From Opitutaceae bacterium (GTDB taxonomy: Bacteria; Verrucomicrobiota; Verrucomicrobiia; Opitutales; Opitutaceae): 33,446 nt of DNA. The position numbers were made by a program, and so were the translations under genes. Shown here piece after piece: positions 27,403 to 31,096 of the stretch. A model generated the notes under the pieces. The model was not told where the DNA came from. It worked only from the letters and a program-made list of their open reading frames with translations, and made no database searches. Within the stretch, counting starts at the first letter, position 1; each line of letters opens with the position of its first letter. The DNA lies in NCBI GenBank assembly GCA_026125215.1, contig JAHCLN010000023.1:1-33446 (forward strand), given 5' to 3'.

Positions 27403-28719
27403 TCAGCTCCGGTAGTCCGCGTTTTCGCTCACATATTCGTGGGTGAGATCGCCGCCGAACACGGTGGCCGCGGCTTCGCCGGCGCCGAGATCAACGGTAA
27501 TTTCCACGCAGCGTTCGTGCGGCGGATAGTCCACGGGCGGGACGAAAACGCCCGACGCATCCGGCTTGCTGGGATAAAGCTCGGCGCTCCGCAGGTGCGC
27601 CACCAGGGCCGTTTCCTTTTGCGGGTCGAGCCGGAAGATGCCGCCCGCGAAGATTTCGATCCCGCCCATTTGCAGGCGCAGGCGCGACAGATCGAGGCCG
27701 GGCGCATGCAGGCCGGTGTGCTTGCCGATGGCCTGGACCAGCCGGCCGACGTTGGGATCGTTGCCGGCCACGGCGCATTTGAAGAGCGGGGCGTTGACCA
27801 CGGCGCGACCGATGGCGCGCGCCGTGTCGAAATCCGGCGCGTGTGCCACGTGCACCCGGATGACGTGCCGGATGCCCTCGCCGTTGCGCACCACGTCCTC
27901 GGCCAGTTCGGTGCAGACCCGGGCCAGGGCCTGCTCAAATTCCGCCGCGGACACCCCGGTCACCCGGCCGGAGGAGACGAGGGCGACGGTGTCCGAGGTG
28001 CTCATGTCGCTGTCCACGCTGATGCTGTTGAAGCTGGGTCCGACCACGCGTCGCAGCATGGCCCGGAGCGTGTCCCGCGGCACGGCAATGTCGGTTAGGA
28101 TATAGACCAGCATCGTGGCGAGGTTGGGCTCGATCATGCCGGCGCCCTTGGCGATGCCGACGATGCGGCCGGCGCCGACCGTGGCGCAGCGCACCTTGGG
28201 GTAGAGGTCCGTGGTCACGATGCCTTCCGCGGCGGGCAAAACGGATCCGCCCGTCAGACCGGCGGTGGCGGCCGGCAGCGCGGCCAGCATGGCCTCGACC
28301 GGCAGGCTCCAGCCGATCACGCCGGTGGAGGAGGGGAGGACTTCGGTTGGCTGCAGCTGCAGGAGGCGGGCGGTCTCGGCGCAGATTTGTTCGGCCGCGG
28401 CCTCGCCGTCCGGCGCGCAGACATTGGAGATCTTGTTGTTGATGATGATGGCGCCGAGCCGCGGTTCGCCGAGACGCTTCCGGCCGACGATCACCGGGGC
28501 GCCGGGAAAAGCATTGCGGGTGAAGACGGCGGCGAAGTCCGGGGTGGGCCGGTCGAGGGCGATCAGGGTCAGCGTCATCTTCGCCGGCTTCGGGGCCTCG
28601 CGCGGCACAAAGTCGAAGCGGGTCGTGCCCACGCGGAATCCGGCGGGCAGGGCGGCCTGGGTCGCGAGCCACCGGCGGTGTTCCTCGCGGTTGGTAAAAG
28701 TCAGTTGGGTGCTCGGCAC
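27403..28719 (-). CDS. argJ: Glutamate N-acetyltransferase / ornithine acetyltransferase
   Basis: A 438-residue ArgJ, which moves acetyl from N-acetylornithine to glutamate and so recycles the acetyl group; some forms also use acetyl-CoA. The protein cuts itself before a Thr that becomes the nucleophile: Thr202 in MIEPNLATMLVYILTD. The oxyanion STGVIG lies at residues 131-136. Another block is SFNSISVDSDMSTSDTV. The first conserved Asn region reads INNKISNVCAPDG, unlike the common GNANACTG form. Some 30 extra N-terminal residues precede the core. It is inverted relative to the other arginine genes, convergent with argC and divergent from argB. Confidence 0.95.
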   Translation of the reverse strand: MPSTQLTFTNREEHRRWLATQAALPAGFRVGTTRFDFVPREAPKPAKMTLTLIALDRPTPDFAAVFTRNAFPGAPVIVGRKRLGEPRLGAIIINNKISNVCAPDGEAAAEQICAETARLLQLQPTEVLPSSTGVIGWSLPVEAMLAALPAATAGLTGGSVLPAAEGIVTTDLYPKVRCATVGAGRIVGIAKGAGMIEPNLATMLVYILTDIAVPRDTLRAMLRRVVGPSFNSISVDSDMSTSDTVALVSSGRVTGVSAAEFEQALARVCTELAEDVVRNGEGIRHVIRVHVAHAPDFDTARAIGRAVVNAPLFKCAVAGNDPNVGRLVQAIGKHTGLHAPGLDLSRLRLQMGGIEIFAGGIFRLDPQKETALVAHLRSAELYPSKPDASGVFVPPVDYPPHERCVEITVDLGAGEAAATVFGGDLTHEYVSENADYRS

Positions 28720-28916: not shown

Positions 28917-29798
28917 ATGAATGTCGCCGAGATTACCGCCAAGGCGAAGGTGCTGCTGGAGGCCCTTCCCTACATCCAGGATTTCCGTGGCTCCACCTTC
29001 GTCGTGAAATACGGCGGGAGCTTCATGGATGATCCCGACCCCGCCGCCCGCAACCGGGTGGCCCACGACATCGCGTTCTTTGCGGCGGTCGGCATCAACG
29101 TCGTCGTCGTGCACGGCGGCGGCAAGGCCATCACCCGGGCGATGGAAGGCTCCGGCCTGAAGGCAAATTTCATCAACGGCCTCCGGGTCACCGACGAGGC
29201 GACGATCACCCTGGTGAAGAAAACCCTCGACGAGGTCGTGAACAAGGAGGTGTGCGAGGCGATCGCGCTTGCCGGCGGCCGCCCCAAGGGACTCGCGGGC
29301 GATGCGGTGCTGGTTTGCCAGAAGCTCACCACCGACGACAGCGGCAAGACCGTGGACCTCGGTTACGTCGGCGAGGTCACCGAGGTGAAAGTGAAACTCA
29401 TCAAGAAGGAAATCGGCGAGGGTTTCATTCCGGTCATCTCCCCGGTGGCCGAGGGCTACGACGGCAAGCCTTACAACGTGAACGCCGACTTGGTCGCCGG
29501 CCGCGTGGCCAGCGCGCTGCGGGCGCGGCGGTTGGTTTACATGAGCGACGTGCCCGGGCTGCTGGGCAATCCCGCGGATCCGGCCTCCCTCATCTCCACG
29601 CTGAAAATCAGCCAGGTGGACGACCTCAAGAAAAAGGGCGTCATCGACAAGGGCATGCGGCCCAAGGTCCAGAGCGCGATCCGCGCGCTGGAGGAAGGCG
29701 TGCAACGCGTGCACTTCATCGACGGCCGGCTGCCCCACAGCCTCTTGCTGGAAATTTTCACCGACAAGGGCATCGGCACGGAGATCGTGCACGGCTGA
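28917..29798 (+). CDS. argB: Acetylglutamate kinase
   Basis: A 293-residue amino-acid kinase phosphorylating N-acetylglutamate, the second step of the pathway and in many bacteria with ArgJ the arginine-inhibited one. It begins [20 protein letters not shown], with [11 protein letters not shown] for [14 protein letters not shown] for substrate, and [20 protein letters not shown]. The N-terminal helix of about 20 residues before the kinase core is the one that forms hexamers in arginine-sensitive enzymes, so feedback control is plausible but not shown. The argD gene follows after an 80-nt gap filled by an AT-rich inverted repeat. Confidence 0.97.
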
Positions 29799-29802
29799 GA
29801 TT

Positions 29803-29875
29803 ATTTTCGATTTTCGATTCTCGATTTTGGATTTGGTTGAGGGAAATCGAAAATCGAGAATCCAAAATCAAAAAT
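29803..29875. repeat. AT-rich 32-bp imperfect inverted repeat between argB and argD
   Basis: Arms 29803-29834 and 29844-29875 pair at 29 of 32 positions around a 9-nt loop GGTTGAGGG. The arms are built from repeats of words like TCGATT and GATTTT and are far more AT-rich than the genes around them. The stem starts 4 nt after the argB stop and ends 3 nt before the argD ATG. Such GATTTTCGATTCTCGATTTT-type strings look like a dispersed intergenic repeat. It could act as a terminator or block argD translation; no function is shown. Confidence 0.85.
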
Positions 29876-29878
29876 TTC

Positions 29879-31096
29879 ATGACCCCGCCCTCCATCATCC
29901 GCACCAGCACGGCGGAGCATTACGACGCCCACGTGCTCAAGAACTACGCCCGCGCGCCGCTCACCCTGGTGCGCGGCCGCGGGGCGCAGGTCTGGGATGA
30001 CGCGGGCAACGCCTACCTCGATTTCACCTCCGGCATCGCGGTCAGCGCCCTGGGCCATTGCCATCCGCATTGGGTGGCGGCGATCCAGCGGCAGGCCGGC
30101 GAGCTCATCCACACGAGCAACCTGTTTCGCCACCCAAACCAGGGGGAACTCGCGCGCCGGCTGGTCGGCTACGCCGGCCCCGGCCGGGTCTTTTTCTGCA
30201 ACAGCGGTGCCGAGGCCAACGAGGCCCTGCTCAAGCTCGCCCGGCTGCACGGCATGAAAAAGGCGGGCGAGGAGGGCAAATGCTACAAGGTGATCTGCGC
30301 GCAGCAGGCGTTCCACGGCCGCACCTTCGGCGGCATGAGCGCCACGCCGCAGGAAAAGATCCAGAAGGGCTTCCGCCCGCTGGTCCCCGGCTTCGCCTTC
30401 GGGGAACTCAACAACCTGCAAAGTTTCGCGGATCTGGTGGACGACCAGACGGCGGCGATTTTTGTCGAGACCATCCAGGGCGAAGGCGGCATTCACCCCT
30501 GCACGCCGGAGTTTTTGCTCGGCCTGCGCCAGTTGTGCGACCGGCACAACCTGCTGCTGATGCTCGACGAGGTGCAGTGCGGCATCGGCCGCACCGGCCG
30601 GTTCTTTGCCTTTGAGCACGCGGGCGTCCGGGCCGATGCGATCGGCATGGCCAAGGGCCTCGGCGGCGGTTTCCCCATCGGGGCGATGTGGGTCGGCGAG
30701 CGCGGTGCGGAGCTTTTCCAACCCGGGATGCACGGCACGACCTTCGGCGGCACCCCGCTGGCCTGTGCGGCCGGGCTGGCGGTGCTGGATGTGCTCGAGC
30801 GGGAAAAACTGCTGGCCAGGGTGCAGGCGCAAAGCCCCGGTTGGATCGACTCTCTCCGGCAGCTGGCGACCGATTTCCCCGCGCAGGTGCTGGGCGTGCG
30901 CGGGCTCGGCTACCTGGTCGGGCTGCAAATGGCCGCCGATCCCGCGCCCTTCCTTGCGGCGCTCCGGGAGCGCGGCCTGCTCGTGCCTTCCGCCGGCGGC
31001 AATGTCGTGCGCCTGCTGCCCCCGCTCACCGCCACGGCGGACGAGCTGGCGCGGTCCGTCGCCATCATCCGGGACGCGCTGGTTACGAAAGCGTAA
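29879..31096 (+). CDS. argD: Acetylornithine aminotransferase
   Basis: A 405-residue PLP enzyme of class III making N-acetylornithine from the semialdehyde and glutamate. Family blocks: YLDFTSGIAVSALGH (46-60), FFCNSGAEANEALLKLAR, AFHGRTFGGMSATPQ, LMLDEVQCGIGRTG with Asp230, and the PLP-binding Lys259 in GMAKGLGGGFPIGA. The start at 29879 is directly after the inverted repeat; the frame upstream is open but translates repeat and argB sequence. If the repeat folds in the mRNA, argD translation may be reduced. Its stop lies inside a small palindrome GTTACG-AAAG-CGTAAC (31082-31097). Confidence 0.96.
   Translation: MTPPSIIRTSTAEHYDAHVLKNYARAPLTLVRGRGAQVWDDAGNAYLDFTSGIAVSALGHCHPHWVAAIQRQAGELIHTSNLFRHPNQGELARRLVGYAGPGRVFFCNSGAEANEALLKLARLHGMKKAGEEGKCYKVICAQQAFHGRTFGGMSATPQEKIQKGFRPLVPGFAFGELNNLQSFADLVDDQTAAIFVETIQGEGGIHPCTPEFLLGLRQLCDRHNLLLMLDEVQCGIGRTGRFFAFEHAGVRADAIGMAKGLGGGFPIGAMWVGERGAELFQPGMHGTTFGGTPLACAAGLAVLDVLEREKLLARVQAQSPGWIDSLRQLATDFPAQVLGVRGLGYLVGLQMAADPAPFLAALRERGLLVPSAGGNVVRLLPPLTATADELARSVAIIRDALVTKA

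Follow-up and report, generated by a model that had tools for sequence, protein, structure and literature searches.

The nearest described counterpart of the element considered here is the intervening sequence (IVS) of Coxiella burnetii, which is 428 nt long, carries an S23 ORF and has a 28-bp terminal repeat (PMC4990558). Repeats of seven nucleotides whose cause is unexplained have been described elsewhere in bacteria: TAACTGA repeats in Beggiatoaceae, Cyanobacteria and Bacteroidetes (PMC4679880), and GGGAATC repeats in Xanthomonas and GGGGA(C/T)T repeats in Nostoc, the Xanthomonas heptamers forming 70-75 inverted pairs per genome (PMC4692102). S23 is mentioned in neither of these two heptamer-repeat papers. 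In the solved structures PDB 2gsc and 2rld, S23 proteins, each a four-helix bundle, assemble as pentamers, and the pentamer is credited to Lin 2006 in a paper on diversity-generating retroelements, whose Avd is an S23-homologous four-helix-bundle protein essential to retrohoming (PMC10053308). Are S23 proteins connected with mobile elements? A search of the open-access literature, with most subscription papers outside its scope, returned no paper that ties the two together under those names.

The DNA studied here, called the window, is a stretch of 33,446 nt from an Opitutaceae genome, and an inverted repeat lies in it between argB and argD (Table 1). The original prediction described a 32-bp stem with three mismatches that fills this gap, starting 4 nt past the argB stop and ending 3 nt ahead of the argD ATG, and this description is accurate: the 32-nt arms are 91% complementary. 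The window has 10 listed inverted repeats of short range, of which this one is the longest and the sole AT-rich one. Both arms are tandem arrays of the 7-nt unit GATTYTN. The word GATTTTCGATT occurs 7 times in the window at up to one mismatch, against 0.34 expected and with no shuffle reaching 7, and all 7 matches are inside the stem. The predicted RNA fold has an energy of -34.1 kcal/mol, compared with -24.6 +/- 3.4 for shuffled sequences (z -2.8), and is more stable than all 200 of 200 shuffles. An Rfam search of the hairpin gave sub-threshold microRNA hairpin matches alone, which were judged artefacts of a long hairpin, and a literature search with the literal arm sequence returned unrelated papers only.

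Table 1. Features of the argB-argD junction and of two S23-bearing elements of the same genome.
Feature	Position	Strand	Remarks
argJ	27403-28719	-	argC on one side (convergent), argB on the other (divergent)
argB, acetylglutamate kinase	28917-29798	+	upstream gene of the junction; TIGR00761 7.5e-67, translation
Left arm	29803-29834	+	about 4.5 heptads GATTYTN (ATTTTCG ATTTTCG ATTCTCG ATTTTGG ATTT); word reads inward
Loop, 9 nt	29835-29843	no strand
Right arm	29844-29875	-	inverted heptad array; all three mismatches with the left arm at the variable 7th letter of the heptad
argD, acetylornithine transaminase	29879-31096	+	ATG 3 nt past the right arm; TIGR00707 7.8e-137, translation
S23-bearing element, GATTTTC-word arms	contig C1, 52673-53095		this genome (G000)
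S23-bearing element, GATTTTC-word arms	contig C1, 54357-54779		this genome (G000)

Is the stem peculiar to this junction? The genome searched for copies is a 3.46-Mb draft in 224 contigs and is 91% complete. BLAST with the argB-argD element gave 84 matches in it, and the pattern GATTTTNGATTYTNGATTTT gave 51 at up to one mismatch, while the reversed pattern gave 0. The suspicion that the stem is an inserted dispersed repeat is thus well supported. Many of the copies are inverted pairs, often closely flanked by a stop codon at one edge and a start codon at the opposite edge, and the loops between their arms are unrelated in sequence and length; some copies are single arms. A second word, TAAGCNN, occurs in this genome at one S23 copy and at many other sites, including inverted pairs that have no ORF. 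In a phylum sample of 387 genomes the exact pattern was found in 40, among them 16 of the 37 genomes of the same family (Opitutaceae), with a maximum of 71 matches per genome, and in none from other families of the same order. The congener G437 (about 91% DNA identity) has several of the same GATTTTC sites, so those copies predate the split, and the many copies common to the two may be old and inert. One GATTTTC element without an ORF (L009 vs L256) is inverted between its arms in G437, its flanks being colinear.

The word also flanks genes. Two elements on contig C1, whose arms carry the same word as the argB-argD arms, each enclose a gene of PF05635 (23S rRNA-intervening sequence protein, a four-helix bundle; E 2.7e-13 and 9.8e-13). 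These two elements are 1.7 kb apart, their proteins are 97% identical, and they look like a tandem duplication that includes flanking sequence. Most S23 genes of this genome lie within inverted repeats, with heptad arms that each use a different word (TAAGCNN, GAGTAGC, AGTCAGA, TTTTAGG and GATTTTC). At three loci (L210, L211, L206) the S23 reading frame can extend into the right arm, where the heptads encode a C-terminal tail, e.g. QSKIGNQKSKI. A second class of elements of similar size was seen at L143, L144, L148 (argF-argG gap) and L383, with a GxxExxY / PDDEXK_3 (PF13366) gene enclosed by inverted arms whose words, CGAATGGACG and GCGCAGAAA, have a period of 9-10 nt.

How general is the arrangement? 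PF05635 is present in 99 of 120 sampled family genomes. With flanking arms called at a score of at least 12 (match +1, mismatch -2, ungapped), 26 of 32 family S23 genes have them, compared with 2 of 192 control positions shifted within those loci. Within these arms the self-identity is 0.76 at lag 7 and 0.79 at lag 14, while it is 0.28 in shuffles and 0.21-0.27 at other lags. A scan of public genomes, made with one single S23 protein as query, gave 80 loci of another S23 clade, from Verrucomicrobia, Planctomycetes, Chloroflexi, Nitrospira, Acidobacteria, Cyanobacteria, Bacteroidetes, several Proteobacteria and others. Arms were found at 44 of the 74 loci tested, against 2 of 408 controls, with a lag-7 identity of 0.74 (overall 0.74-0.76, shuffled 0.25-0.28). 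By the same criterion 6 of the 32 family genes and 30 of the 74 scan genes have no clear flanking repeat. The sequences show that S23 genes as a rule sit between heptad arms, and the full element would consist of an inverted heptad array, an S23/PF05635 gene of about 120 aa and a second heptad array, about 395-480 bp in all.

The words follow the proteins. In the public scan the word is mostly TCAGC-NN or close to it. Relatives of the C1 protein in the phylum have arms in 25 of 30 cases, with words mostly of the GATTNNN type, and the five nearest ones have GATTTTN. Over 73 elements, protein identity correlates with word similarity (Mantel r 0.64, reached by 0 of 2000 permutations). This is partly expected, since physical linkage within one element accounts for part of it. 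The words persist, however, between proteins that are 50-80% identical, a distance at which DNA free of constraint should lose similarity, which suggests that linkage is not the whole cause. Six plasmid records, from five cyanobacteria and one Chloroflexota species, again join each clade to its word: GATTNNN with a C1-type protein on plasmids of Gloeocapsa, Chlorohelix, Planktothrix and Nostoc, and TTAGCNN with the other S23 clade, that of the public scan, on plasmids of Pseudanabaena and Calothrix. Several plasmid S23 genes stand amid defence genes or genes that work together, i.e. cas6-S23-cas4, DUF1156-S23-Swt1 and drmD-S23-mmeI (L402, L398, L399, L400), and the DUF1156-S23-Swt1 arrangement was seen twice, in two phyla. 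Within the family, the five genomes that have a close C1-type S23 carry 4-71 GATTTTC matches, while 20 others carry 0-6 (Mann-Whitney p 0.0004).

Do such elements move? The S23 element at L206 is missing in the congeners G437 and G453. Compared with G437 it is a 438-bp insertion with ATGA at both edges, a 4-bp duplication, which could be read cleanly at this one site only (against G437, not against G468). At the empty site in G437, ATGA is the overlap of the two host genes, as stop and start; with the element in place, neither gene loses its codon. For the argB-argD copy, no relative close enough for such a comparison had an orthologous empty site. In G437, one S23 element of C1 has lost its interior by deletion: the arms remain and the ORF is gone. 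These comparisons show that such elements insert and that their ORF can be lost by internal deletion. A further candidate for an empty site, L203 in G437, was rejected, as most of its S23 element has given way to a GxxExxY element.

We consider it likely that the argB-argD stem is an ORF-less, MITE-like satellite copy of a small selfish S23 heptad element. Its arms belong to a dispersed repeat, and their word flanks two S23 genes here. No S23 ORF was seen in the argB-argD gap itself, which has a 9-nt loop only, so the stem is classed just as an ORF-less satellite and its descent from a full element is deduced from the shared word. How might such an element work? To our knowledge, S23 has no known catalytic domain and is not a transposase family. 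From a fixed period of 7 nt, together with a word that is free and yet specific to the clade, one would expect a protein able to read repeats set at a fixed spacing. The pentameric four-helix bundle may recognise its own heptads by their conserved core, every 7 nt along RNA or single-stranded DNA, so that the ring would bind the cores of successive heptads. It would act on full elements and also, in trans, on satellites, and strand joining or copying would be left to another enzyme. Insertion at a tight stop/start junction would spare both genes, and the stem could fold out and keep the argB stop near the argD start. As a more general and more tentative proposal, in which our confidence is well below that in the satellite origin of the stem, S23 proteins might mark out a widespread class of minimal mobile elements under a heptad code, the ring reading, at the ends of its own element, a core word that is particular to its clade and recurs every 7 nt, with many unexplained intergenic heptamer repeats, including the argB-argD stem, as satellites.

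There is a further question of concern, whether the stem controls argD. The original prediction supposed that the folded RNA would hide the argD start. A regulatory hairpin kept to set argD relative to argB, by attenuation or by masking of the argD start, would agree with a stem that folds stably, fills the gap and covers the expected Shine-Dalgarno position with its 3' arm. In five orthologous stems of two congeners (91% DNA identity) the arms vary less than loops and flanks, at 11 of 300 sites compared with 11 of 120 and 38 of 477. The covariation of the arms that was proposed as a check did not appear, however, as there are 0 compensatory double changes in the 150 pairs; the changes are 4 pair-preserving single ones, 3 breaks and 2 gains. 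The comparison of relatives can be read on both sides. The genes argB and argD are adjacent in 78 relatives, and in 69 of them the gap measures 30 nt or more. An inverted repeat (score at least 12) is found in 26 of these 69 gaps, compared with 3 of 48 argD-argF gaps and 7 of 27 argF-argG gaps, and the outer stem edges lie at a median of 8 nt past the stop and 6 nt ahead of the start. Placing the GATT state on a tree of ArgB+ArgD takes 14 changes, of which at least 11 are forced by well-supported branches, gains and losses being indistinguishable. Such recurrence would suit a regulatory role, but about two thirds of the relatives have no strong stem in the gap, which in some is just 5-10 nt. 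The words vary as well: about 19 genomes, counted by reading, have words of the GATTNNN type, and others have unrelated words in stems that fill the same place. The same elements are also found at many unrelated junctions. GTAG-type palindromes (GGTAGGGACGG..., TTGTAGGGCGG...) were also seen at junctions of the same operon (L129, L145, L155 and others). Repeated occupation by varied inverted repeats means that the argB-argD junction is a preferred target, or that inserts are tolerated or useful there. We regard a kept regulatory hairpin as unlikely, though the stem might have some effect on argD. The best reading is that the stem, as an ORF-less S23 satellite, is tolerated between two operon genes.

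Other origins of the stem are much less probable than this. One is a REP/REPIN moved by a RAYT, i.e. a Y1 tyrosine transposase. The copies are dispersed, intergenic and palindromic, their inverted pairs resemble REPINs, and the genome has 8 Y1_Tnp matches. This origin is nevertheless very improbable, since the stem has an AT-rich heptad array instead of the GTAG tag of a palindrome that neighbours a Y1 RAYT gene, the Y1_Tnp loci listed have no significant copy of the word close by, the gene between the GATTTTC arms is S23, and GTAG-type palindromes form a separate class in these genomes. Slightly more doubtful still is chance or local slippage, in which heptads expanded in place and template switching made a quasi-palindrome. 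Heptad arrays do differ by whole units (21 nt, i.e. 3 heptads, between this genome and G437), and heptamers are over-represented in bacteria (PMC4692102), but the same word occurs at tens of sites in this genome and in family relatives, and in other phyla it surrounds the genes of one S23 clade. The least credible origin is an intrinsic terminator, for which a stable stem between the two genes would be suitable but which is opposed by an AT-rich rather than G+C-rich stem without a U-tract, by a list of six terminator-like sites for the region that does not include it, and by argF and argG, which follow argD in the same direction.

The S23 satellite reading brings together three puzzles: what S23/IVP proteins do, the selfish elements of the IVS type and the scattered heptamer repeats of bacteria. 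It also suggests a route by which inserts settle in operons without gene damage, i.e. by landing in stop/start overlaps.

How do these elements compare with the known systems? Like the rRNA IVS with an S23 ORF, they have a PF05635 ORF of about 120 aa, a length of about 400-480 nt and a terminal inverted repeat of about 28 bp, and share the trait of being regarded as selfish and horizontally spread. Unlike the IVS, they sit between protein genes, as the stem does at the argB-argD junction rather than within a 16S or 23S rRNA gene, and ORF-less copies outnumber full ones. Their arms have a 7-nt period and a clade-specific word, which may be a further difference. With MITEs and REPINs the stem shares a short, non-autonomous inverted repeat that is dispersed, intergenic and related to a gene-bearing partner; the argB-argD element has terminal inverted repeats, is multi-copy and is non-coding. 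In contrast, the gene-bearing partner with matching ends encodes S23, a four-helix bundle without known catalytic domain, and not a transposase, and the arms are degenerate tandem arrays around arbitrary loops. The stem agrees with the S23 heptad elements themselves in its inverted arms of 7-nt period and in sharing its word with an S23-bearing element of the genome. Avd and S23 are homologous four-helix bundles. Finally, the published heptamer repeats resemble the arms in their 7-nt units, intergenic, near gene ends. TAACTGA is the complement of TCAGTTA, and TCAGTNN words occur here; GGGAATC is the complement of GATTCCC, a GATTNNN word. The rule seen in S23 elements may explain the heptamer repeats of other bacteria.
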